A stretch of DNA of 64,000 nucleotides. Source: an uncultured Pseudomonadota bacterium (GTDB lineage Bacteria > Myxococcota_A > UBA796 > SXON01). The notes under the pieces are model-generated. The model saw nothing but the letters and a program-made list of their open reading frames with translations, did no database searches and was not told where the DNA came from. Below, in pieces: positions 1 through 20,998 of this stretch. A program made the position numbers and the translations under genes. Location of the stretch: the NCBI GenBank assembly GCA_903844155.1, contig CAIMSU010000070.1, positions 1 through 64,000 of the forward strand, written 5' to 3'. How positions within the stretch are numbered: the first letter of the stretch is position 1; every line of letters starts with the position of its first letter.

Positions 1-59
1 CTCTATTGAACGTACGAAAATCTGCTACCAATTTTTCAAAGACCAGCGAGCCTTCCGGT

Positions 60-245: not shown

Positions 246-2501
246 TCAGTGGCTGTCCACGCCCCCGCTGTCGGTGCCGCCCGAATCCGAGGTCCCGCTG
301 TCCGACGCTGCGGTGTCAGAACCCGCGGTATCTCCGGCCGAACCCTCCACGCCGGTCGCCAGCGTACAGTCGGGGTCGATGCTGTCGACGAGCCCGTCCG
401 CATCGTTGTCAACACCGTCGTTACAGCCCGCGGTGCCGTAGCCGAGCTCGCGCGCACCGGCAGCGCAGTCGGGATCAGCGGCGTCAGTCCAGCCATCGCC
501 GTCGTTGTCGAGGCCGTCAGCGCAATCCGGCGCGTCGCTCGCGGTCTCGTTGCCGCCGGCGACGCATTCGGGATCGGCGGCGTCCGTCAGGCCATCATGG
601 TCATTGTCCAGCCCGTCGCTGCAATTACTCTCGTCGTCGTCGGTCGCGGAGTCGCACAGACTGTCCTTGCTGTCCTTCTTCCCGTCGCCGTCGTTGTCGA
701 TGCCGTCGTTGCATTGCGTCGTCCCAAGGCCCGTTTCCTCGGTGCCCGAGGCGCAGTCCGGGTCCTCGGCGTCTGTCCAACCGTCGTTGTCGTCGTCCAG
801 GCAGTTGTGGCAGCCGTCGGACTCGGTCGGGTTCGTCCAGCCGTAGAAGCCAAAATCGCCGGTCGTATACGAAAAGACCACATCGCCCTTGAGGTTCGAC
901 GCCATCGTGTAGTCCGTCACCCGCTGGAACTCGACGACGACGTACCCCCAGTTCCCGATCGTGGCGTCCAGATACCCGTCGCCCACCTTGGGCGCCTGGG
1001 GGACAAGCACCGTTGGAAACTGGTACATCACGGATGCCGGCACTTCGAGGTGCGATTGCTTCGAGGTGCGGTCGTACTCGTTGTCGTCCGGGACCTCGAT
1101 GACCGCTCGCACCGGGTAGTTGGTCGCCCCGAACCAGTTCAACCCGAGCTCGGTGATAGTCACGCGCACGTAGGTGCGAGCGTCGAGAATCGCGCCGGCC
1201 GAGCTGGCGACGGCGGCCGACGGCGTCCACGCGAACTGGACCGCGGTGTCGTCGAGCTGCTCCGGGTTGCCGGCCGTGTCGGCAAAGCACGAGTCGAGGC
1301 TGCCGATCGACCAGAGGTCGGTCTGGGTGTCGGTGGCGTCCTTCGGCGGGGTGATCCCCTGGGTCGTGTAGACGACGATGGGCTCGGGGAGCGTGAGGGG
1401 GACGGCGGCGAGCCCGGCGGTCGGCGCGTCGAGCGTGATGTCGACCGGGGCAAGGTGGGCGACGTCGTCCTTCTTGCTGGTGGCGAAGAAGTCGTCGGCG
1501 ACGGGCCAATCGGCGTTGTAGACGTCGGTGGGGATGCCGTTGACGTCGTCGGACGTGCAGAAATTCAGCGTCGAGAGGTCGTAGGTCGTTTGACCGCTGG
1601 GGCAGACGTCCGCGGTCGAGCCCGGCGGAATGCTGTCGACGGAGACGACGTAGGCGTCCGGATTGCCGCTCTCCCCGCCGCCGTACCGGTAGGATGCCGT
1701 CGAATTGAGGTCCGCGCAATAGGGTTTTCCACCGTTCCAGAACGCGTTGTGCAACGCGACAGGGCCGACGTCCTGGTGCAGCTTGTCAACGCCGAAGGGC
1801 GCGCTCAACTGACCGGGACGCTCGACGTGCCAATCGGGACTCCCGGCGTCGCTGGCCCCGAAAAACCCGCTCGTCGGCGTGTGGACCCGAGGGTACAGAA
1901 AGCTGTAGCCCTCCGCCGTGCCCGACGTCCCCGTGTAGCCAAGGTACGCGATCGTCGAACACCCGAGGTTCCCGTGCTCGTCGTCCGAGCGCGTCGACAG
2001 GCCGCCGAGGCAGCTCTCCCAGTAATTGTTGACCTGCACGTAGGCGGACTGGTTGTCGTAGGTCCCGGACGTGTCGTAGGTATAGCCACCGGTCAACGCT
2101 GAAAATCCCGTCGGTGTCGCCACATCCACATCGACTGCCCCGCCGCTGAGCGGGCCAGGCGGCACGATGACCGTCAGCGCCGTGTCCGCCGCGCTGACCA
2201 CGGTCGCCGAGTGCTCCGCGAATTCGACCACCAGCCGCGTGGGATCGGTTCCGAACCCGGAGCCGGTGATGGTCACGGTGCCACCGCCCTCCGTCCCCAG
2301 CTCCGAGGCCGTCGACAGCGACGACAGCGTCGGCGGTGCCCAATTGTCCCCGTAGTAGGCGTTGGGTTGGACGCCAAGCGCACAAGCAGAGAGGCGGCCG
2401 ACGGCGAGGAAAATCAGGGCATGGCGAGCGCCGAGGCCCCCCTCCGCCCTTCGGGTACGTCCCCCCAGAGGGGGGAGGGAGACGCGGGTCCATCCCTTCA
2501 T
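246..2501 (-). CDS. Lipoprotein with IPT/TIG domain and five CxDGxDNDxDG repeats
   Basis: Predicted surface lipoprotein of 751 residues, last gene of a four-gene operon. A hydrophobic stretch ends in a lipobox-like LSAC near residue 40. Residues ~57-145 resemble an IPT/TIG immunoglobulin-like fold (GGTVTITGSGFG). A long central region with no recognised family follows. The C-terminal ~190 residues hold five Cys-flanked Asp-rich repeats, likely calcium-binding by their DxDxDG spacing, then a Ser/Thr/Asp/Gly-rich tail. The ATG overlaps the preceding stop (ATGA). The first ~27 residues are unusually long and basic for a signal peptide and are encoded by a GC-rich hairpin element, so the true start is uncertain; no in-frame ATG lies closer. 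Function unknown; a surface adhesion or scaffold role is inference. Confidence 0.8.
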   Translation of the reverse strand: MKGWTRVSLPPLGGRTRRAEGGLGARHALIFLAVGRLSACALGVQPNAYYGDNWAPPTLSSLSTASELGTEGGGTVTITGSGFGTDPTRLVVEFAEHSATVVSAADTALTVIVPPGPLSGGAVDVDVATPTGFSALTGGYTYDTSGTYDNQSAYVQVNNYWESCLGGLSTRSDDEHGNLGCSTIAYLGYTGTSGTAEGYSFLYPRVHTPTSGFFGASDAGSPDWHVERPGQLSAPFGVDKLHQDVGPVALHNAFWNGGKPYCADLNSTASYRYGGGESGNPDAYVVSVDSIPPGSTADVCPSGQTTYDLSTLNFCTSDDVNGIPTDVYNADWPVADDFFATSKKDDVAHLAPVDITLDAPTAGLAAVPLTLPEPIVVYTTQGITPPKDATDTQTDLWSIGSLDSCFADTAGNPEQLDDTAVQFAWTPSAAVASSAGAILDARTYVRVTITELGLNWFGATNYPVRAVIEVPDDNEYDRTSKQSHLEVPASVMYQFPTVLVPQAPKVGDGYLDATIGNWGYVVVEFQRVTDYTMASNLKGDVVFSYTTGDFGFYGWTNPTESDGCHNCLDDDNDGWTDAEDPDCASGTEETGLGTTQCNDGIDNDGDGKKDSKDSLCDSATDDDESNCSDGLDNDHDGLTDAADPECVAGGNETASDAPDCADGLDNDGDGWTDAADPDCAAGARELGYGTAGCNDGVDNDADGLVDSIDPDCTLATGVEGSAGDTAGSDTAASDSGTSDSGGTDSGGVDSH
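366..812 (-). repeat. Five tandem Cys/Asp-rich coding repeats
   Basis: The gene's 3' part encodes five copies of a ~20-residue unit CxDGxDNDxDGxxDxxDPxC separated by variable linkers of roughly 10-15 residues. The first copy (CHNCLDDDNDG) is the most diverged. Regularly spaced Asp residues resemble DxDxDG calcium loops, and each unit begins and ends with Cys, which could close a disulfide-bonded loop. Such repeats are common in secreted proteins of myxobacteria-like organisms. Confidence 0.8.
2437..2475 (-). repeat. GC-rich palindromic (REP-like) element inside the 5' coding region
   Basis: Perfect inverted repeat CCCCCCTC / GAGGGGGG at 2437-2444 and 2468-2475, with a nested C6-AGA-G6 hairpin at 2461-2475 and a small CCCTTCGGG hairpin between. 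On the minus strand it is translated as the residues LPPLGGRTRRAEGG at the N-terminus of the downstream lipoprotein. It resembles an extragenic palindrome that has entered, or replaced, the start of the gene. A single copy was seen in this window. Confidence 0.5.
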
Positions 2502-4027
2502 TTTCCGCTCCCGTCGAACCAGAACCGTCCGATGTCGATGGCCCGGCTCGTCACCTTGACGGGGTTGATGTCGAGGCGCTGATTGTACTGGTCCTTCGCC
2601 GACGGGACGTTGGCCTCAAGCTCGGTTGACCGCGCAAAGTAGAACACCGCCCCCTGCGCGCCGTGCGTCCGCGCGTAGGTCTCGGCCTCGCTCACGATGT
2701 CCGACGTGAGGGTGAACGACCCGTCATCCTTGAGCCGACAGGTGACCTCCGCCATGTTGTGGAAGGGGTCGCCGCGCATGGCGGGGGCGAGGTTGCCGTC
2801 CTGGGAGAGGAAGGCGTCGTCGAACACCCACGCGCCCTTCTCGCACGCCGCAGGGGCTCGCCTGCCCTGTGGGATGGTGGCGTCGGTGGGGACACTCCCG
2901 GCCCGCTGGGCCTTGTTCCACGCGGTGTTGGCGGCGTCGTCCGGGGTGACGAGCACGACGTCCTCCTGCAGGTTCGGATCGGTCTGGTCCACGGGGCCGA
3001 GGAACCGGACCGCGAGCGACACGTATTCGTCCGGCTGATCGCCGGGAGTCCAGTGGAAGTCCACTCCCGAATCGCTGTCCCAGGGGCCCGTGTACATCTG
3101 ACCGATCAGGCTCGCGCCCGTTGGAGGAATGTCCGCGGCGTCGCAATCGGGCGCGGACGCAGGCGCGAGCGCGTCGTCCGTCGGGTAGGCGAGGCAGCGG
3201 GCCTCGGGGCCAGAGTCGAGCGACGACCCGAATTCGTCGTACCGGGGGCCGCTCCAGGTCAGCAGCACGCCGCCAGGCTGCTGCGGCAGGGTGAACTGGT
3301 TGTCGCCCTGTGATGCCGACGGCATCGGCACCGAGGCCACGGGCGCGTCTGCGGGGGCGAGGCCGCCGGGGAAGGAGAACCCGACGGTCTGGCCAAACGG
3401 GAAATTGTTCCGTCGAACGACGCTCTGCGTCATCTGCGAGGGCTTCTTCTCGCCGTTGTACACGTACCCGTTCTGAACGGTCTCGTTCCAGAAGTCGATG
3501 GCGCTGTAGTAGATGAACATGTCCTGCCGGTTCGCCGGATAATCGCCGGGGAGACGGTCGAGGACCAGGCCGCCGGTGCCGTCCGCGGTCAGGATGGAGA
3601 TTCCGCTGCCGACGTCCGAGGTCTTGAAGGAGCCGATGGGGCCGGTCGCCTCAAAGGTGGTGTAGCAGGTGTCGTCGACGCTTGGGGGCACCGAGGTGAC
3701 GCCGCCGAGGCTGTCGGCTGAGGCAAGCTTGCGGTCGAAGATGTAGCTGAACCCGTATACGGCCGCGTAGGGCGGCTTGTACCCCGAGAGGCCGGGCCCA
3801 ACCTCGTCAAACGCGCCGAGGCCCATGAGCGCGAGCGACAAGCCCCCGCCCGCAAAGTTGACCCAGCTGTACTCGACAACGCCCCCGTAGGGTGTCGGCG
3901 CAGGGCCGATCTCCTCCGGGTTGTAGCCGACGCCGACGAGCTTGACCGGGGCATCCTCGTAGTTGGGCTGGCAGGAGACAGCGCCAAGGAGCGCTACGGG
4001 GAGGCAGCAGGCGAGCAGGGTCCTCAT
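2498..4027 (-). CDS. Exported lipoprotein of unknown function
   Basis: 509-residue predicted lipoprotein: a short signal peptide ends in GAVSC with the lipobox Cys at about residue 19, followed by QPNYEDAP. No known domain is recognised. The body is rich in Gly, Asp, Pro and aromatic residues and has few Cys, suggesting a beta-rich secreted fold. It starts directly after the stop of the peptidase/propeller gene (TAGATG, no gap) and its stop overlaps the start of the repeat-containing lipoprotein, so the three are very likely cotranscribed. It shares the general plan of its downstream neighbour (lipoprotein, mixed beta-rich body), but I see no clear sequence repeat between them. Confidence 0.8.
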   Translation of the reverse strand: MRTLLACCLPVALLGAVSCQPNYEDAPVKLVGVGYNPEEIGPAPTPYGGVVEYSWVNFAGGGLSLALMGLGAFDEVGPGLSGYKPPYAAVYGFSYIFDRKLASADSLGGVTSVPPSVDDTCYTTFEATGPIGSFKTSDVGSGISILTADGTGGLVLDRLPGDYPANRQDMFIYYSAIDFWNETVQNGYVYNGEKKPSQMTQSVVRRNNFPFGQTVGFSFPGGLAPADAPVASVPMPSASQGDNQFTLPQQPGGVLLTWSGPRYDEFGSSLDSGPEARCLAYPTDDALAPASAPDCDAADIPPTGASLIGQMYTGPWDSDSGVDFHWTPGDQPDEYVSLAVRFLGPVDQTDPNLQEDVVLVTPDDAANTAWNKAQRAGSVPTDATIPQGRRAPAACEKGAWVFDDAFLSQDGNLAPAMRGDPFHNMAEVTCRLKDDGSFTLTSDIVSEAETYARTHGAQGAVFYFARSTELEANVPSAKDQYNQRLDINPVKVTSRAIDIGRFWFDGSGK

Positions 4028-7000
4028 CTACCACCCCGTCCCAAGGCCAAGGTAGAACCTTGGTCCTGGCTTTTCGGTCTCATTGGAGAGGCCGTTCCCG
4101 ATGCCGGTGTTGGTCGTGTCCTGGATGCCGTCGCCGTTGACGTCGCCGATTCCGTGGATCTCATTGAACCCCCAGGCCGCGCGCACAAAGCAGTTCCACG
4201 GGATCGTGAAAAGGTCGGCGCTCACACGCAATTCCGCGCCCGCGTCGTAGAGCATGTAGTTGCCGTTCTTGTAGGCCTTGTCGACGAACGGGATCTCCCG
4301 ATGGACAGACGCCGGGTTTCGCGCGACCCGGTCCCCGTACTCGTTGACGTAGTAGTTGTTCGGGTCCGTCGGCGCGCGGTAGGACCACAGGTTGCCCGCG
4401 GTCCCCATCACCTGCGCGGTCACGTCGTAGAAGTAGAAAGGACCGACCTTTTTGTTGAGGTAGCGGCGGATGGGAAACCGGTAGGCGAGGTTCAGGATCG
4501 CCATCGTCTCGCCCGAGAGGCTGTTCGCGGGGTAGCCGGAGAAGAGCGTGTTGGGACGAAGCGAGTCGGACCCGAAGTTGTAGGGGTGCTGGCCACCAGC
4601 GCGAAACTCATCGTTGAAGCTCACGTTCTGGTCGATGACCCCGCCCTGGAAGTCGAGCTGGATCACATGGCGGTGGCTGTTGGCGGCCTGGAGCACAGTC
4701 CCCCACGCCGGAACCTGGATCTGCTCCGTCCAACGCCCTTCAATCCGGTCATAGCCGTAGTTGTCCAGGAGCTGGCCGTCATCGACCTGGTGGCCACCAT
4801 ACGGCGCGTAGACGATGTCCGTTTGGCCACGCCCAACGCTCAGATCGATGTTTCGGCCGCCCATCGGGTTCGCGCGGCGGCTCGCGTAGGAGATGTTCGA
4901 GAAGTTCATGTCCAGGCTGACGATCCCGCCCGCCTGGAACGGTTGGTAGCTGGTATCGGACGAGGTGCGGAACCCATATTCCAGGTAGTTGGCGTTGATG
5001 TCCGTCGAGAACTGGTCGTTCCACGGGTAGTGGACATTCAGGTTGGCGAGGTCCTCGTACTGCTGGTTCTTGCCCTCAAACGTGGTTTGATCGGTGGTCG
5101 TGGCAGTGTTGCCGTCCGTGTCGAGCAGGTAGCCGTAGGTGAACTTGCCCTCATACCGGAGCATCGTGAGCGTGAAGTCGGGGTACCACCCGGTGTAGCT
5201 GTACTGGCCCTCGATCAGGTTGTCCTCACCGAGCAGACCCGTGATGGAAACCGTGTTTTTCTGGACGTAGTCCTGCACGAAGACGTACGCGCCTGCCTGG
5301 ATCGAAAAGTCGTCCGCGCTGTCGTTGGAGCCCCGGATGATGGGCACGGCAGCCGGCGCCATGATCTGGCCCTTGTACTTTTCGGCCTTGTACATGCTCA
5401 GATCCTCGCGCGAGTCCCAGCTTGCCGCCGCAACTTCGGGCGCCACGGTGGTCTGGTACCGCGCGGTCGCGTCCTTCCACAGAAAATCCGCCTTGTCCAA
5501 CCCCCACATCTTCCAGCCATGCGCCGTGTAGTTCGCGAACACGAGGTTCCCCTCGGGCGTGAGCGACGGTGCCTCTGCCCCACCGATCACGTTCGTCACC
5601 TGCTGGATGTGGCGGGTCGCGACATTGTAGGCATACACATTGAAGATGCCGGAGCTGTCGGACGAGAAGTAGATGTTCCCGTCCTTCGCCCAGCACGGGT
5701 CCATGTCCTCCCACTTGTCCCACATCAACGGGTGGATGTCGGCCGCGGTGTTCATCTTCGTGGCGTCGAGGACGTAGAGATCCTGCTGGTCGTTCCGATA
5801 GATCCCGACCACGATCTGCTTGCCGTCGGGCGACCAGTCGGCGCGCTGCATCCACGTGCCGTCGTTGAAGTTCGTGAGGTAGATCTTCTGGGAACCATCC
5901 AGGTTGATGCTGACGAGATTGAGCGTGCCGTCGGTGTACTCAAAGTAGGCGACGTGGTGGCCATCGGGGCTCACGACCGGCTCCATCGCGCGCAGCGTGT
6001 TCGGGATCTTCCGCCACTTCTTCCAGTCCGCCGGGGACTGCGGGACGGGCCGACCCATGAACGTGCGATCCTTGTGCCCCTCGTACTCCAGGTTCTTCTC
6101 GCGCTCGGTCTTCTCCACCAGCGGCGCGACCCAGAGCTGGTTCCAGTCGTACGTGGATGTGCCAAGTTGAACGCCGGTCAGCATCGTCGCGAGGCCCTGC
6201 GCCCGCTCGGTCCCAACCACGACGAGGGAATCCTGTCCGGGGACGAAGTCCCACTCCGTCATCATCCCTGCGGGGATCGCGTGCCCGTGCTCGTCGACGC
6301 GCGCCTGCGTCCCAGGATCGGGCTTGCCGTCGGCGCCAAACGCGGTCATGGCGCGCTCGGGTGTCTGGCTCACAACGACGCTGCCACGCGAGTTGTAGCC
6401 GTACCACTTGCCGTCGTCGGAGAATCGCGGCGTGTCCTGATAGGTCCCCGACTTCAGCTTCGCGCGTTCGCGCTCCTGCTGCGCCAATTCCGGGCCGGTG
6501 ACGCCGTGTTTGCGCTTCCACCGCAGGTCGTACCACTTGTCCCGGCCATCCGGGTCCGTGTACTCCCAGTCGTCCACGCTCGTCTTCAGTTCGCGGCCAA
6601 CGGTCTCACCCTCGGCCTTCACCGCCGCATATTGCTTGCCGTAGATATCCTTCATGGTGGCCAGCCAGTCGTTGTAGAGCGTCTCGCCGTCCACGCCGAG
6701 CACCTTCTTGAAGACCACGTTCCAGTCCGGGTGCCAGCCCTTCGCGTTCTCCAACCCCAGCTTCTGGTACGTGTCGTGCCCGAACCGGTGCCGGAGGTAC
6801 AGCGCAAAACTGTAGCCCTGCTGGTAGTAGCGCTCGGGGTCGTTCCACGTCCAGTCCTGGTTCTGGATCTGCCACTCCTGCCACGTCAACTGCCGATCTT
6901 CGAGGATCGTCGTGCGGATGTGCATGTCCCGGCTGGGTGTCCACCAGTTGTAGCCGGACTCGTCGGACCAGTATTCGGCGCCGCCCTCGACCCAGAACTC

Positions 7001-7552
7001 GCTTGGGTTCTCCCGCAAGATCACGTCGCCGCCCGCCTCGGTGTTGGACTTCCCCTCCCCGTACAGCCCGCCGATCTCGACCGCCTCGACGCCTTCTGCC
7101 ATGGCCGCCTCGGCCTTGAGCGAGACGACGTGCGCGAATTCATGGGCGAGGACGTCCGGAAGCCAGTCCATGCGCCCGCGCTGCCGGTAGAAGTCCGACC
7201 CCGGGTTCGCCGAGATCTCGATCCAGTCCCATGGCGGCACGGTGAACCCCTCCAGGTCGTCCGTGTCGTTCGTGATGACGATGTTGACGCGCTCCTTGAT
7301 CCAATAGTTGAAGTTCGCGCACTCGCGCGGGTAGATCTCCTCGGCGACCTTCGCCGCCTTCTTCGCGGTCCACTCGGCCGTAAGGTAGTGCGCGTTGTCC
7401 TTGGCGTTCCGGGACTGCGGGTAGTGGACGACGAAGTGTTCCGTCTCGATCGAGTACCACTGGAGGTCGGGATGGCCGCTGGCTTGCGCCGGACGTGGGG
7501 CCAGCGCGAGGAGCAGGGCGAGCGCGGCGAGCGAGATCGGGGCGCGGCGCAT
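4028..7552 (-). CDS. HExxH peptidase-like protein with WD40/TolB-like propeller and outer-membrane barrel
   Basis: 1174-residue exported protein. Signal peptide residues 1-24 (cleavage near AQA-SG). Residues ~30-200 look like a gluzincin metallopeptidase domain: HEFAH at 137-141, with a plausible third ligand Glu in VEGGAEYW (~189). Residues ~350-720 contain several TolB/WD40-like blades (VSPDGHHVAYF, WSPDGKQIVVGI, TPEGNLVFAN). From ~740 to the end the pattern of alternating residues, YRFPIRRYL and a terminal GLGTGW fits an outer-membrane barrel of the BamA/surface-antigen kind. A peptidase anchored in the outer membrane with a propeller between is the simplest reading; activity and substrate are unknown. 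It sits between a small barrel protein and two lipoproteins in one operon. Confidence 0.85.
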   Translation of the reverse strand: MRRAPISLAALALLLALAPRPAQASGHPDLQWYSIETEHFVVHYPQSRNAKDNAHYLTAEWTAKKAAKVAEEIYPRECANFNYWIKERVNIVITNDTDDLEGFTVPPWDWIEISANPGSDFYRQRGRMDWLPDVLAHEFAHVVSLKAEAAMAEGVEAVEIGGLYGEGKSNTEAGGDVILRENPSEFWVEGGAEYWSDESGYNWWTPSRDMHIRTTILEDRQLTWQEWQIQNQDWTWNDPERYYQQGYSFALYLRHRFGHDTYQKLGLENAKGWHPDWNVVFKKVLGVDGETLYNDWLATMKDIYGKQYAAVKAEGETVGRELKTSVDDWEYTDPDGRDKWYDLRWKRKHGVTGPELAQQERERAKLKSGTYQDTPRFSDDGKWYGYNSRGSVVVSQTPERAMTAFGADGKPDPGTQARVDEHGHAIPAGMMTEWDFVPGQDSLVVVGTERAQGLATMLTGVQLGTSTYDWNQLWVAPLVEKTEREKNLEYEGHKDRTFMGRPVPQSPADWKKWRKIPNTLRAMEPVVSPDGHHVAYFEYTDGTLNLVSINLDGSQKIYLTNFNDGTWMQRADWSPDGKQIVVGIYRNDQQDLYVLDATKMNTAADIHPLMWDKWEDMDPCWAKDGNIYFSSDSSGIFNVYAYNVATRHIQQVTNVIGGAEAPSLTPEGNLVFANYTAHGWKMWGLDKADFLWKDATARYQTTVAPEVAAASWDSREDLSMYKAEKYKGQIMAPAAVPIIRGSNDSADDFSIQAGAYVFVQDYVQKNTVSITGLLGEDNLIEGQYSYTGWYPDFTLTMLRYEGKFTYGYLLDTDGNTATTTDQTTFEGKNQQYEDLANLNVHYPWNDQFSTDINANYLEYGFRTSSDTSYQPFQAGGIVSLDMNFSNISYASRRANPMGGRNIDLSVGRGQTDIVYAPYGGHQVDDGQLLDNYGYDRIEGRWTEQIQVPAWGTVLQAANSHRHVIQLDFQGGVIDQNVSFNDEFRAGGQHPYNFGSDSLRPNTLFSGYPANSLSGETMAILNLAYRFPIRRYLNKKVGPFYFYDVTAQVMGTAGNLWSYRAPTDPNNYYVNEYGDRVARNPASVHREIPFVDKAYKNGNYMLYDAGAELRVSADLFTIPWNCFVRAAWGFNEIHGIGDVNGDGIQDTTNTGIGNGLSNETEKPGPRFYLGLGTGW

Positions 7553-8583
7553 CAGTACCTCAGCTCCAGCGTCGCGCTGTAGGTGAGCCCGCGCGTCGGC
7601 GTGAGGTCCTCGAACGGAAAGAACGTGAGATCCTCGCCGCGAAGGGGGATATCCACGGCGGCGACGAGGTCGAAGCCGCGGGTGACGTTGGCGGTCAGGG
7701 CCGGTGTCAGGTCGAGCGACCAGCCGTCCGAGCCGGCGATCGGCGTGAGGTGCTGGTCGGGGATGATGCCGCCGGACGTGGTGCCCATCGCAGCCTGCGC
7801 GCGCGCGGCGTACGCGAGCTCGGCGCTCACGCCAACGGGCCCGAGCTGAACCTCGGGATCGAGCCGCAGCCGTAGCTCATCGCCCGGCTTGAATCGGCCG
7901 AGGAACTGGTATTGTTCCACCTCGATGACGTACTGGGTCACGCCGGAGAACTTGTGCGTCGCTCGGATGCCCGCGGTGACCGCCATCGGGCCAAGTTGCT
8001 GCTTGCCGGCCAACTCCAGGCCGACATCCAGGGTTCCCGTCGAGAGCGGAAACGTGGAGACGGTGTTGGGACCGCCGATGAACGTGCCGGGCGACTCGCC
8101 CCCCGCGGGCACCTTCAGGAACAGGTCGGTGATGACGGAGCTTGTTGGCGCGTGCTTTCGCAGCCACTCGATCTTCCAGCCCATCTTCGGGTCCCCGATT
8201 CCGAACGCGCTCGTGTCCGTCCCCAGCAGGCCATTCTTCAGGTTCACGTAGTGGAACGGCACGTTCAGGTAGAGTTCGGCCCGGCGGGCGATGCCGTAGC
8301 GCAGGCCCGCGCGTTCGGTGGTGTAGAGCCAGTGCGCGCCGTGCCCGCTGTCATCCAGGAACGTCTGGGCGGTGCCGTCCGCGCCCCAGTACCCAGTGGC
8401 CTCCTTGTAGTCGCCGCCAAGGTCGAACTCCAGCCATCCGCGGCCGATGATCAAGCCGCGCTCGACGTCCGTGGTGGCGAGGGGTGCCCGCATCGTCTTG
8501 GCCTGGAACCCGGCGGCCTCTGCCGTGCCGACCGCGAAACGGGCGAGCAGGGGAGCGAGGAGTGAGCAGGCGACGGCGAACAC
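7552..8583 (-). CDS. Outer-membrane beta-barrel protein
   Basis: About 343 residues with an N-terminal signal peptide (hydrophobic core followed by GTAEAAGF). The rest alternates polar and hydrophobic residues and ends in LELRY, a C-terminal aromatic beta-signal of barrel proteins. It resembles the broad transporter/MetA-pathway-like barrel group but I cannot assign a family. GTG at 8583 is chosen because GAGG lies 8 bases upstream; a GTG three codons earlier (8592) is an alternative. Its stop overlaps the start of the peptidase gene (TGATG). First gene of the four-gene exported operon, with a candidate promoter at 8631-8662. Confidence 0.75.
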   Translation of the reverse strand: MFAVACSLLAPLLARFAVGTAEAAGFQAKTMRAPLATTDVERGLIIGRGWLEFDLGGDYKEATGYWGADGTAQTFLDDSGHGAHWLYTTERAGLRYGIARRAELYLNVPFHYVNLKNGLLGTDTSAFGIGDPKMGWKIEWLRKHAPTSSVITDLFLKVPAGGESPGTFIGGPNTVSTFPLSTGTLDVGLELAGKQQLGPMAVTAGIRATHKFSGVTQYVIEVEQYQFLGRFKPGDELRLRLDPEVQLGPVGVSAELAYAARAQAAMGTTSGGIIPDQHLTPIAGSDGWSLDLTPALTANVTRGFDLVAAVDIPLRGEDLTFFPFEDLTPTRGLTYSATLELRY

Positions 8584-8694: not shown

Positions 8695-9429
8695 TCAGCC
8701 CCGAACGGCGTGCCACTGCTGAAGGTCGCGTGCGCGCAGCATCGGGTTCGTTCGTCGCACATCCGACAGCTTCGCGTGGTGGCCACCGTAGGCGTGGCCC
8801 GGCCACAGCTCCATGTCGCCAGGGAGCGTGGAAAGGCGCTGGGAGAGGGTCCGGAACATCTCGTCCGAGTCGCCCCCGGGCAGGTCCACGCGCCCGCACC
8901 CCTGGAGAAACAGCGTGTCCCCCGCAACGAGCGCGTCTCCTTGCCCCGCCTGTCCGCCCATCGGCACGCGAAAGCAGCTTGATCCCGGCGTATGTCCGGG
9001 GGTATGCAGCCACTCGATCCGCACCCCGCCGACCTCGACGTGGTCGCCAGACGCATGGGGGACGAGGTCGTTCGCCGACAAGCCGGTCACCCTGCGCACC
9101 CACTCCGTCTCCAGCTGGTGGACGTGCAGCTTGCAGCCGCAGCGCGCGAGCAGCCCGGCGGCGCCTTCGACGCGAAAGCCCATCATCGACCCGCCTACGT
9201 GGTCGGGATGGTAGTGGGTACCAAGCGCCCCCACGATCCGCATGCCATCGGCCTCAGCGACGTTGACGATGTCGTCGATGGCCCAAGCGGGGTCGACGAC
9301 GACGCACTCGCGCGTCTCGCGGTCGCCGATGAGGTAGACGAAGTTCTCCATCTGGCAACAAACGGGGTTGTCTGCGCCGAAATCGCGGCCGGCGAAAAGC
9401 TGGCGAAAGTAGAGCTGGGTCGGTGACAT
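8695..9429 (-). CDS. Metallo-beta-lactamase-fold hydrolase (glyoxalase II-like)
   Basis: 244 residues. The zinc-binding signature HYHPDH occurs at about residues 72-77, with further His in HTPGHTPGSS and GHAYGGHHA in the expected order for the MBL fold. It resembles the glyoxalase II / persulfide dioxygenase branch, which hydrolyses thioesters or oxidises glutathione persulfide; which one cannot be settled by eye. The C-terminus (RTNPMLRARDLQQWHAVRG) is typical of the glyoxalase-II-like group. ATG has a strong GGAGG four bases upstream. Stand-alone gene between the exported operon and the ferritin-like gene. Confidence 0.85.
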   Translation of the reverse strand: MSPTQLYFRQLFAGRDFGADNPVCCQMENFVYLIGDRETRECVVVDPAWAIDDIVNVAEADGMRIVGALGTHYHPDHVGGSMMGFRVEGAAGLLARCGCKLHVHQLETEWVRRVTGLSANDLVPHASGDHVEVGGVRIEWLHTPGHTPGSSCFRVPMGGQAGQGDALVAGDTLFLQGCGRVDLPGGDSDEMFRTLSQRLSTLPGDMELWPGHAYGGHHAKLSDVRRTNPMLRARDLQQWHAVRG

Positions 9430-9495
9430 CAGGCCTCCAAGGCGCCATACGAAAAGTGACGTCGTCGGTTTTGATACATCTGGGTCGACGGGGGG

Positions 9496-10323
9496 CTACG
9501 CTCGAAAGCCCAGTTCGGTCAGGTAGGTGTGCTCCAGGACGCTACGCGAGCGGGCGAATTGCGACCGTACAAAGAGCAAGGCTCCCGAGAGCATGCACAA
9601 CGCGCGAACGAGGCCGGCTGGCTCAACGGCCGGCACGAACCCGAGCGCCCGCCCCTGCGCGCGTACCTGCGTCTGCACGTAGGCCACGAACCCCGGCAAG
9701 TGCCGCAGGACCCGATGCCCCCGGGCCCGGTCCGCAAACGCCCGCACGACGAAGGGCGCGACCGCGAGCTGTAGCAGAAGGATGCCATAAAAGGGATGAC
9801 GCAACCAGGGCTTCTCAGCGAGGAGCCTCCTCGTCTCCTTCTCGCCCCAGGCCACATGCTCCTCCTCCTCGCGGCAGACCACGGCGAGCTTCTTCTTGAT
9901 CTCCGGGACCCGCGGGTCGGCGTCCGGGAGCGTCTGGATCAGGACTTCCTTGAAGATGTCGAGCACCATGCCCTCTCCGATCGCATGCTCCATCAGGACC
10001 TTGAGCGGGTAGTAGTTGTTGTGCGCCGACAACAGGCGAATCACCCAGTGCGCCCGGACTGGCTCCATCTCCAGCTTCCGGAAGATCTCCGCGAACAATT
10101 CGAGGTGGTTCAACTCCTGTCTCGCTTGCCGGAGGTAGAACCTCGCCGCCTCCAGCGTTCCGGCGGCGTAGAGTGATTTACCGCAGTAGACGCCGGTTGC
10201 CTCGCCGTAAAGCGCCTGCGAGAGCACAAAGCACACGAGCTCGCGGTCCCTGGGGTCCGCCAGATCGAAGCTGTCGCCGCCAAAATCGTAGGACCCGGCC
10301 GCGCGGTCCCAGTCCTCAGCCAT
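9496..10323 (-). CDS. Ferritin-like diiron protein
   Basis: 275 residues with the ferritin-like four-helix metal-ligand pattern: Glu41 (YGEATG), Glu70-x-x-His73 (QELNH), Glu112/Glu117 (EHAIGEG) and Glu153-x-x-His156 (EEEEH). This fits a carboxylate-bridged diiron oxygenase or ferritin-like fold. The C-terminal third is hydrophobic (FYGILLLQLAVAPFVV) and may associate with membrane. The substrate is unknown; alternatives include MiaE-like or COQ7-like hydroxylases. Its start overlaps the stop of the exported-protein gene upstream (TGATG), so the two are cotranscribed. Confidence 0.8.
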   Translation of the reverse strand: MAEDWDRAAGSYDFGGDSFDLADPRDRELVCFVLSQALYGEATGVYCGKSLYAAGTLEAARFYLRQARQELNHLELFAEIFRKLEMEPVRAHWVIRLLSAHNNYYPLKVLMEHAIGEGMVLDIFKEVLIQTLPDADPRVPEIKKKLAVVCREEEEHVAWGEKETRRLLAEKPWLRHPFYGILLLQLAVAPFVVRAFADRARGHRVLRHLPGFVAYVQTQVRAQGRALGFVPAVEPAGLVRALCMLSGALLFVRSQFARSRSVLEHTYLTELGFRA

Positions 10324-11147
10324 CAGCGGACGAGCCTCGGGTCAAAGACCTCGGTGCAATGCCGATGGGTGTTCATCTCGACGATCTCGTCCTCCGTGAA
10401 CGGGGTCGACGACTGCATCACGACGCCCTTGATGAAGTTCATGATCGCCAGCCGGGCGTAGTCGCCGTCGGCGTTGTCGTTCCGGGTGTCCCAGTAGGTG
10501 TAGAGCAGCCGGCGGCGTGCGTCCTCGGGCAGCTTCTGCGACCAGATCTGCTCGCAGTCCGCCGGGATGTCGTTGTTCACACGCAGTTCAAGCTGCTTGC
10601 GGGCGACGGCCTCGTTCAGGTTCAGCACGTCCTGATGCGTGGCATCGAGGATATCCCCTTCCATCGAACGGTATTTGTGGGGTCCGACCATCCAGCCGCC
10701 GATGGAGATGCAGGCGGTCGGCGCGAGGATGCACCACAGGTAGTTGGCGGGCGCGCCCTGGTCGGCAAAGGTGCGGCCGGGGATGTGGATGCGCGGGGGC
10801 TCACGCTGCAGGTACACCCAGCCGTCGTCGTGGACGATGACGCGGGGGTGGTAGGGCACGTAGCTCTTGAAGACGGTGCGGTTGTTCTTGTGGTCGCCCT
10901 TGCGGTATCCGTTGTCCCGGAGATCCTGGAAGAGCTGGGCGCGGGCGCGGGCGACGGCGGGATCCGCCAGGACGTCCACGTCGACGCCACCGGCCTCTTC
11001 CGCCGCAGCGGCGTTGTCCTCAGCTGCGGTTGGGGGTGCGACCGGCGCGGGGAGGGGCGCGGGCGAGGCGACGGGCGTGCCGGCCGGCGCCGGGGACGGG
11101 TCCGCGGCGAAAGCGACGGCGGAGATCAGCAGGATGAGCGGGTGCAC
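10323..11147 (-). CDS. Exported protein of unknown function
   Basis: 274 residues with a short signal peptide (LILLISAVAFAA-DP), a Pro/Ala-rich linker to about residue 45, then a compact soluble domain with no recognised family. The domain has several His and Trp residues and two spaced Cys pairs (LWCILAPTACIS and DCEQIW / HRHCTEVF), suggesting a periplasmic fold with possible disulfides. It is translationally coupled to the ferritin-like gene by a one-base overlap. No function can be assigned. Confidence 0.7.
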   Translation of the reverse strand: MHPLILLISAVAFAADPSPAPAGTPVASPAPLPAPVAPPTAAEDNAAAAEEAGGVDVDVLADPAVARARAQLFQDLRDNGYRKGDHKNNRTVFKSYVPYHPRVIVHDDGWVYLQREPPRIHIPGRTFADQGAPANYLWCILAPTACISIGGWMVGPHKYRSMEGDILDATHQDVLNLNEAVARKQLELRVNNDIPADCEQIWSQKLPEDARRRLLYTYWDTRNDNADGDYARLAIMNFIKGVVMQSSTPFTEDEIVEMNTHRHCTEVFDPRLVR

Positions 11148-20618: not shown

Positions 20619-20672
20619 GGGAACCTCGAGGTCGAGTGGGAGGCGCGGTGCGATCGCGCCATCGAAAGGGAG

Positions 20673-20754
20673 TGCGAGAAGGGGGAGTTGAACCCCCAAG
20701 GGTTGCCCCGCCAGATCCTAAGTCTGGTGCGTCTGCCAGTTCCGCCATTCTCGC
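20673..20754 (-). tRNA. tRNA-Leu (UAG)
   Basis: The minus strand folds as a class II tRNA: acceptor GCGAGAA paired with TTCTCGC, a long variable arm, T-loop GTTCAACTC and anticodon loop CTTAGGA giving UAG. The discriminator is A and CCA is not encoded. It lies 54 bases upstream of tig. Confidence 0.95.
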
Positions 20755-20828
20755 CTAGCAGGCAGCCGGAGAGTTCCGGAAAAATCAGATGCGGGGAGTG
20801 CTGAGGGTTCAGCGCCTCCCCGCATGGA

Positions 20829-20904
20829 TGGTGGGCCCCCCGGGAATCGAACCCGGAACCTGCGGATTAAGAGTCCGATGCTCTGCCAATTGAGCTAGGA
20901 GCCC
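20829..20904 (-). tRNA. tRNA-Lys (CUU)
   Basis: Minus strand: acceptor GGGCTCC with GGGGCCC, D-arm GCTCAATTGGCAGAGC, anticodon loop CTCTTAA (CUU) and T-arm CCGGGTTCGATTCCCGG. The discriminator A is followed by an encoded CCA (20829-20831). Position 27-43 of the anticodon stem is unpaired. Confidence 0.95.
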
Positions 20905-20922
20905 GTGTCATACGACGAAAGC

Positions 20923-20998
20923 TGGGGTGGAAGACGGGGCTTGAACCCGCGACACCTGGAATCACAATCCAGTGCTCTACCAACTGAGCTACATCCAC
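20923..20998 (-). tRNA. tRNA-His (GUG)
   Basis: Minus strand: GTGGATG acceptor, D-arm GCTCAGTTGGTAGAGC, anticodon loop TTGTGAT (GUG). A G at -1 (20999) pairs with the C discriminator, the histidine identity element. CCA is encoded (20923-20925). The acceptor stem has a T6-T67 mismatch. First tRNA of the Leu-Lys-His cluster in transcription order. Confidence 0.93.

Follow-up and report, generated by a model that had tools for sequence, protein, structure and literature searches.

A myxobacterial four-gene operon encoding an Omp85-derived barrel protein with a TolB-type propeller and a predicted zinc peptidase domain

INTRODUCTION

In proteins of the WD40-Omp85 subfamily, a TolB-like propeller precedes an Omp85-type barrel and no POTRA domains were found; the part of the paper drawn on here offers hypotheses about their function, none of which was tested (Heinz and Lithgow 2014, PMC4104836). 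Omp85 barrels also carry a conserved VRGF/Y motif in loop 6 that touches the barrel wall, as described in the portion of PMC12611786 used here. We analyzed the first 64,000 bases (hereafter, the window) of an 81-kb contig (C70; CAIMSU010000070.1) from a draft genome of 8.1 Mb, in which reading of the open reading frames (ORFs) gave four genes on the minus strand at 246-8583, here called A, B, C, and D. The product of B resembles the WD40-Omp85 proteins in having a TolB-like propeller N-terminal to the barrel. However, it differs from them in its added HExxH domain (the word "peptidase" is absent from the main text of PMC4104836), in belonging to a conserved operon together with A, C, and D, and in the lack of the loop-6 arginine.

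An earlier note on this DNA, made from its letters, had called the architecture of B unusual. The combination of a propeller with an Omp85 barrel had already been published (PMC4104836, in the part drawn on here), and we regard B as a relative of the WD40-Omp85 proteins by architecture and not as a wholly new architecture. In mostly freely readable literature, covered through titles and the openings of abstracts, we found no published description of an HExxH-propeller-Omp85 protein or of this operon.

RESULTS

Domain structure and catalytic residues of B

The four genes are as follows.

7552..8583, minus strand: gene A, an outer-membrane beta-barrel protein of 343 residues with a GTG start codon, a signal peptide and the C-terminus LELRY
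4028..7552, minus strand: gene B, 1174 residues, with a predicted HExxH peptidase domain, a TolB-type propeller and an Omp85-type 16-strand barrel, in that order (sequence and model)
2498..4027, minus strand: gene C, a 509-residue all-beta lipoprotein of no known family (sequence, family scans and model)
246..2501, minus strand: gene D, a 751-residue lipoprotein with a TIG domain, acidic double-disulfide repeats and a Ser/Asp-rich tail

Within B, we distinguish the following features.

6614..7465, minus strand: residues 30-313, helical gluzincin-like peptidase domain, predicted from the model and from weak family matches in homologues
7130..7144, minus strand: HExxH (HEFAH, residues 137-141), invariant in 33/33 and 42/42 sequences
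6986..6988, minus strand: E189 (in WVEGGAEY), probable third zinc ligand, invariant in the same two sets
6824..6826, minus strand: Y243, possible transition-state tyrosine, likewise invariant in both
5477..6604, minus strand: residues 317-692, TolB-type beta-propeller (VIA-align Z 22.6 to 2ojh)
4037..5353, minus strand: residues 734-1172, 16-strand barrel (strands from the model; TamA 8us3, Z 18.3; BamA, E 8.1e-7)
4529..4543, minus strand: FSGYP, residues 1004-1008, in the loop that joins strands 11 and 12, at the site of the Omp85 [VIL]RG[FY] motif

The AlphaFold model of B, which was built with 42 sequences, has a predicted local distance difference test score (pLDDT) of 81.5 and a predicted template modeling score (pTM) of 0.79. 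It comprises a helical HExxH domain, a TolB-type propeller, and an Omp85-type barrel in which 16 long strands were tallied. Together with the sequence features, it agrees with the earlier description of the locus as encoding a barrel protein (A), an HExxH-propeller-barrel protein (B), and two lipoproteins (C and D). VIA-align placed residues 317-678 on TolB (Z 22.6, root-mean-square deviation (rmsd) 3.0, 246 residues aligned) and residues 731-1174 on TamA (Z 18.3, rmsd 4.0, 277 aligned), with FhaC and BamA close behind; Foldseek returned TolB (3.1e-8), BamA (8.1e-7), and CdiB (4.7e-6). None of the 50 VIA-align matches listed for the whole of B is a peptidase.

Although the propeller has the fold of TolB, B scored only 73.6 bits against the TolB model TIGR02800, far under its cut-off of 343.15. 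The window's B had no match to PF01103 (Omp85) and was not among the TIGR03303 (BamA) matches in its own genome at E 0.001; an operon-linked paralogue (L065) does pass PF01103, with 27.9 bits against a cut-off of 24. The same genome encodes a canonical BamA (contig C228) and a true TolB (C36), both above their cut-offs, and B is therefore an addition to these proteins.

Residues H137, E138, H141, E189, and Y243 are invariant in both alignments of B, A1 (33 sequences) and A3 (42 sequences), which have genomes in common. The pattern appears to be that of gluzincin peptidases, and from it we predict that B binds zinc and is proteolytic. Weak matches to Peptidase_M9 (5/33) and Peptidase_MA_2 (2/33) were found among the B homologues.

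Two clades of B differ in loop 6

In the matches listed, most relatives also have one to a propeller-barrel paralogue that stands alone, with an open frame of ~1000 residues. The set includes a copy in the window's own genome (on C268, locus L075), L088-L090, and L160-L179. All 20 of the stand-alone paralogues that were fetched contain HExxH. The earlier note would have taken a variable HExxH site as refuting its proposal; as the motif is present in 33/33, 42/42, and 20/20 sequences, the site is conserved.

In the model of B, FSGYP falls in the long loop joining strands 11 and 12, the position that loop 6 has in Omp85 proteins; the loop-6 arginine is thought to be important for the function of Omp85 and TpsB proteins. 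A tree was computed from 29 operon-linked proteins and 24 stand-alone ones (the 20 that were fetched and 4 of alignment A1); the two groups form separate clades in it, with a support of 1.0. The stand-alone proteins keep [LI]RG[YFH] in loop 6, with arginine in the motif column of all 23 readable sequences, the 24th being interrupted by a contig end. In the 29 operon-linked proteins, the same column holds alanine (14), serine (9), or proline (6), and never arginine. The stand-alone paralogue thus shares HExxH, propeller, and barrel with B, but differs from it in keeping the loop-6 motif, in belonging to a separate clade, and in having no A-like ORF beside it (0 of the 20 fetched loci).

The operon-linked barrel has dropped the hallmark arginine of Omp85 while the peptidase site stayed fixed, and we consider this pairing the most telling result of the analysis. 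Loss of the arginine may well mean that barrel-insertase activity was lost. B is best described as Omp85-derived rather than as a canonical member of Omp85, since its barrel is of the Omp85 type and its loop 6 lacks the motif. To the WD40-Omp85 picture, the tree adds an operon-bound clade that is distinct from the HExxH-bearing stand-alone paralogue.

Conservation of the operon

Genes A and B have one base in common, C follows B directly, and the ends of C and D overlap by four bases (ATGA). These overlaps and the zero gap fit a single transcript with coupled translation, which we propose for A-B-C-D from the junctions. A single-sequence search of genome contigs recovered no relative, and a profile search of them found 47 loci; tblastn matches against plasmids were confined to the propeller region. 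The order A-B-C-D was seen in loci of the same family and order and, more diverged, in other families of the class. The gap between A and B is -1 to 64 nucleotides (nt) in all 45 loci with both genes, and that between B and C is -7 to 80 nt in all 42 loci with both. The genomes behind these counts overlap those of the gene-order comparison, and the start codons and C-D gaps in them are script choices; large negative or positive C-D values are unreliable. The earlier claim of a gapless four-gene operon is therefore upheld by the junctions, by the recurrence of the gene order throughout the taxonomic order and in much of the class, and by the close spacing at 45/45 and 42/42 loci. Given that order and spacing recur in so many loci, the arrangement is more than chance.

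Profile searches of 71 class genomes found A in 60 and C in 49. Some genomes carry a second, diverged operon (A'B'), the four loci of which form matching clades of their own in the A and B trees (support 0.998 and 1.0); A and B were therefore copied together. Shorter A-B pairs without C-D occur at L073, L076, L086, L087, and L148. For one A homologue (G044), the 1.2 kb that remain before the contig end hold no B-like ORF, and in two genomes of the window's genus (G001, G004) the region is interrupted by contig ends.

Gene C lies almost solely beside B: 52 of its 57 places are ≤250 nt downstream of a B, counting the B genes among the matches listed. Three of the other five are pieces on separate contigs, one lies at 1099 nt and has an internal stop, and one is that of genome G064. 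The 57 places were entered from 68 match rows, with 11 rows omitted as second fragments of a gene already entered, and with one row per B gene. Such proximity would be expected if B were a dedicated export or maturation factor, similar to two-partner or Slam-type systems, with C and D as its cargo (surface lipoproteins that are flipped or trimmed) and A as a helper barrel. The variable number of acidic repeats among D orthologues would suit a cargo, and the TpsB transporters FhaC and CdiB are among the fold matches of B. We nevertheless think this reading unlikely, as A-B pairs exist without C-D, G064 has C-D apart from A-B, and the loop-6 arginine, with its presumed importance for Omp85 and TpsB function, has been lost.

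Which side of the membrane

The class-level B proteins are longer than the window's B. An OmpA domain was found in all six class-level B proteins tested (E 1.3e-17 to 2.1e-22), inserted into the propeller after residue 644 of the window's B and spanning ~240 alignment columns. Among the 33 B homologues scanned, two have it, both class-level; it is in neither the window's B nor the order-level relatives. OmpA domains bind peptidoglycan, and Omp85 barrels hold their N-terminal domains in the periplasm, with PlpD as a debated exception. Because a peptidoglycan-binding domain sits inside the propeller, the propeller of B, and the peptidase domain with it, most likely face the periplasm. A match of class-level B to TraB covered the repeat-OmpA segment only, and we did not accept it as kinship.

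The earlier note had suggested a surface assembly or a system directed at prey or host. In its explicit form, this reading places the peptidase outside, where it would degrade nutrient or prey proteins captured by C and D, and makes A the uptake channel. The collagenase-family (Peptidase_M9) similarity in 5/33 homologues, the resemblance of A to small-molecule channel barrels, and the presence of two lipoproteins, a SusCD-like feature, are all in keeping with it. We consider it quite unlikely, since the OmpA insert in 6/6 class-level relatives and the even-stranded Omp85 barrel both point to the periplasm for the N-terminal domains, and since the flanking genes recur in the genus only, so that no transporter or extra hydrolase travels with the operon. 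The proposal of a surface-facing peptidase is not supported by this evidence.

The same OmpA insert, with the TolB-type propeller, could instead point to a structural tether between outer membrane and peptidoglycan, in which the peptidase trims or remodels wall-linked proteins; such a module would serve envelope integrity, much as Tol-Pal does. This is an improbable reading in our judgment: the domain is missing from the window's B and its order-level relatives, and the genome already has a canonical TolB.

Products of A, C, and D

The C-terminus of A is of the barrel type, with an aromatic final residue. A passes the Pfam model Phenol_MetA_deg (PF13557) with 27.3 bits against a cut-off of 22, although just 9 of 43 A homologues match this model (E 0.01). 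The lipobox cysteine of C is residue 19 and is invariant in 38/38 alignment rows; that of D, read from the sequence, is residue 40. The lipobox pattern was found in 23/24 C and 22/24 D proteins, and the two D exceptions have the cysteine in a slightly different box. C has a confident, all-beta model (pLDDT 87.5, pTM 0.85). We dropped the assignment of C to a known fold, as Foldseek gave none at E 0.001 and the best VIA-align match had Z 5.9 with an rmsd of 8.8, which does not imply that the fold is novel. All 10 further D proteins chosen from the fetched orthologues have the TIG domain and the acidic double-disulfide repeats, with the number of repeats differing among orthologues.

The 5′ end of D contains, in frame, a dispersed repeat of ~43 bases (2436-2479, minus strand), which occurs at six places in the genome including D, 82-100% alike. 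It lengthens the n-region of the signal peptide, which is shorter in most orthologues.

Genomic surroundings

Two features lie 3′ of D, next to the contig end.

125..151, minus strand: promoter-like TTGACG-N15-GATAAG, presumably belonging to the ribosomal RNA (rRNA) operon
24..40, minus strand: rRNA leader sequence (TTTGAAAAATTGGTAGC); the contig end falls just before the 16S gene

Of the 15 family loci examined, 11 have the 16S start 3′ of D, three have the leader only, at a contig end, and the last (G019) has a fused 23S-5S stretch there. At L043, the 16S gene is at the contig end and the script's end of D is wrong. Many family contigs break off at the operon because it directly precedes the 16S rRNA gene. 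Outside the family, 16S also lies 3′ of D at L049, L064, and L080; it is absent from many other loci, and the gene set is therefore independent of the rRNA site.

Upstream of the operon (8695-11147, minus strand) are metallo-hydrolase, ferritin-like, and unknown genes that are 71-85% conserved in the genus; they were not found beside the operon in loci outside the genus. Genes for the transfer RNAs tRNA-Leu, tRNA-Lys, and tRNA-His are clustered at 20672-20998.

DISCUSSION

We tentatively favor the view that the operon encodes a periplasmic complex, anchored in the outer membrane, with peptidase and assembly functions; its task would be the maturation or quality control of a small number of outer-membrane or surface proteins. 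B would be a zinc endopeptidase mounted on an Omp85-type barrel that anchors it in the outer membrane. The propeller beneath the barrel would recruit partners or peptidoglycan-linked proteins, and proteolysis by the HExxH domain would take place in the periplasm. B, the partner barrel A, and the two lipoproteins may form a small complex alongside the ordinary BAM (beta-barrel assembly machinery) and Tol systems; this complex would mature, clear, or quality-control a limited set of proteins, with C and D as stable subunits or as the first clients of B. Complex formation, the substrates, and the periplasmic location are proposed here.

Several observations weigh against this view. The N-terminal domain of the window's B matches no peptidase family in family and profile scans, and C is unmatched in 22 of the 71 class genomes, some of them through contig breaks. 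In G064, a C-D-like lipoprotein pair (L143 4234-7855) lies apart from the A-B pair, and the agreement of A, B, and C distances is expected from common descent too. In addition, A seems to have some use of its own, because two congeners (G002, G003) keep it without B-C-D: an intact A is followed by ~300 nt and then by the rRNA leader (in G002 also by the 16S start), with no B between them and no B or C elsewhere among the matches listed. The A genes of these two genomes (L144 8063-9381, L146 1-1338) are diverged, with ~55% and 39-43% identity. B-C-D can thus be lost as a block while A stays. Independent occurrence of the genes, which the earlier note had named as evidence against its grouping, was accordingly seen for A alone in G002 and G003 and for the separate C-D of G064, and mostly not elsewhere, judging from the 52 C places near B.

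These results bear on the WD40-Omp85 proteins, which were named in 2014 and for which we found one paper using that name, in three ways. A conserved peptidase site is shown for them here in myxobacteria. A single loop-6 motif splits the family into one clade that keeps the motif and stands alone and another in which it is missing and whose genes are linked to A, and usually to C and D as well. Finally, naming three candidate partners (A, C, and D) makes the role of these proteins testable.

A bolder proposal is that the operon represents an outer-membrane machine of its own: an Omp85 barrel gave up its insertase lock (the loop-6 arginine), became a platform for a periplasmic peptidase, and gathered a partner barrel and lipoproteins as in the BAM of Bacteroidota, having evolved independently in myxobacteria; we hold this to be rather doubtful. 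The complex favored above would also, by analogy, resemble the BAM of Bacteroidota in layout, in which the Omp85 barrel is accompanied by another barrel (BamG), by the surface lipoproteins BamH and BamM, and by a partner in the periplasm. There, however, POTRA domains and the RGF/Y motif are present in BamA, and the portion of PMC12611786 used here describes no peptidase subunit. In task, the favored complex would by analogy be like BepA, an M48 peptidase that acts at BAM and is a zinc enzyme of the periplasm serving the quality control of outer-membrane proteins (PMC8423444 and PMC7950410, in the parts drawn on here). In contrast to BepA, which is a separate enzyme, the predicted peptidase domain of B forms one chain with a barrel of its own and apparently belongs to another family.

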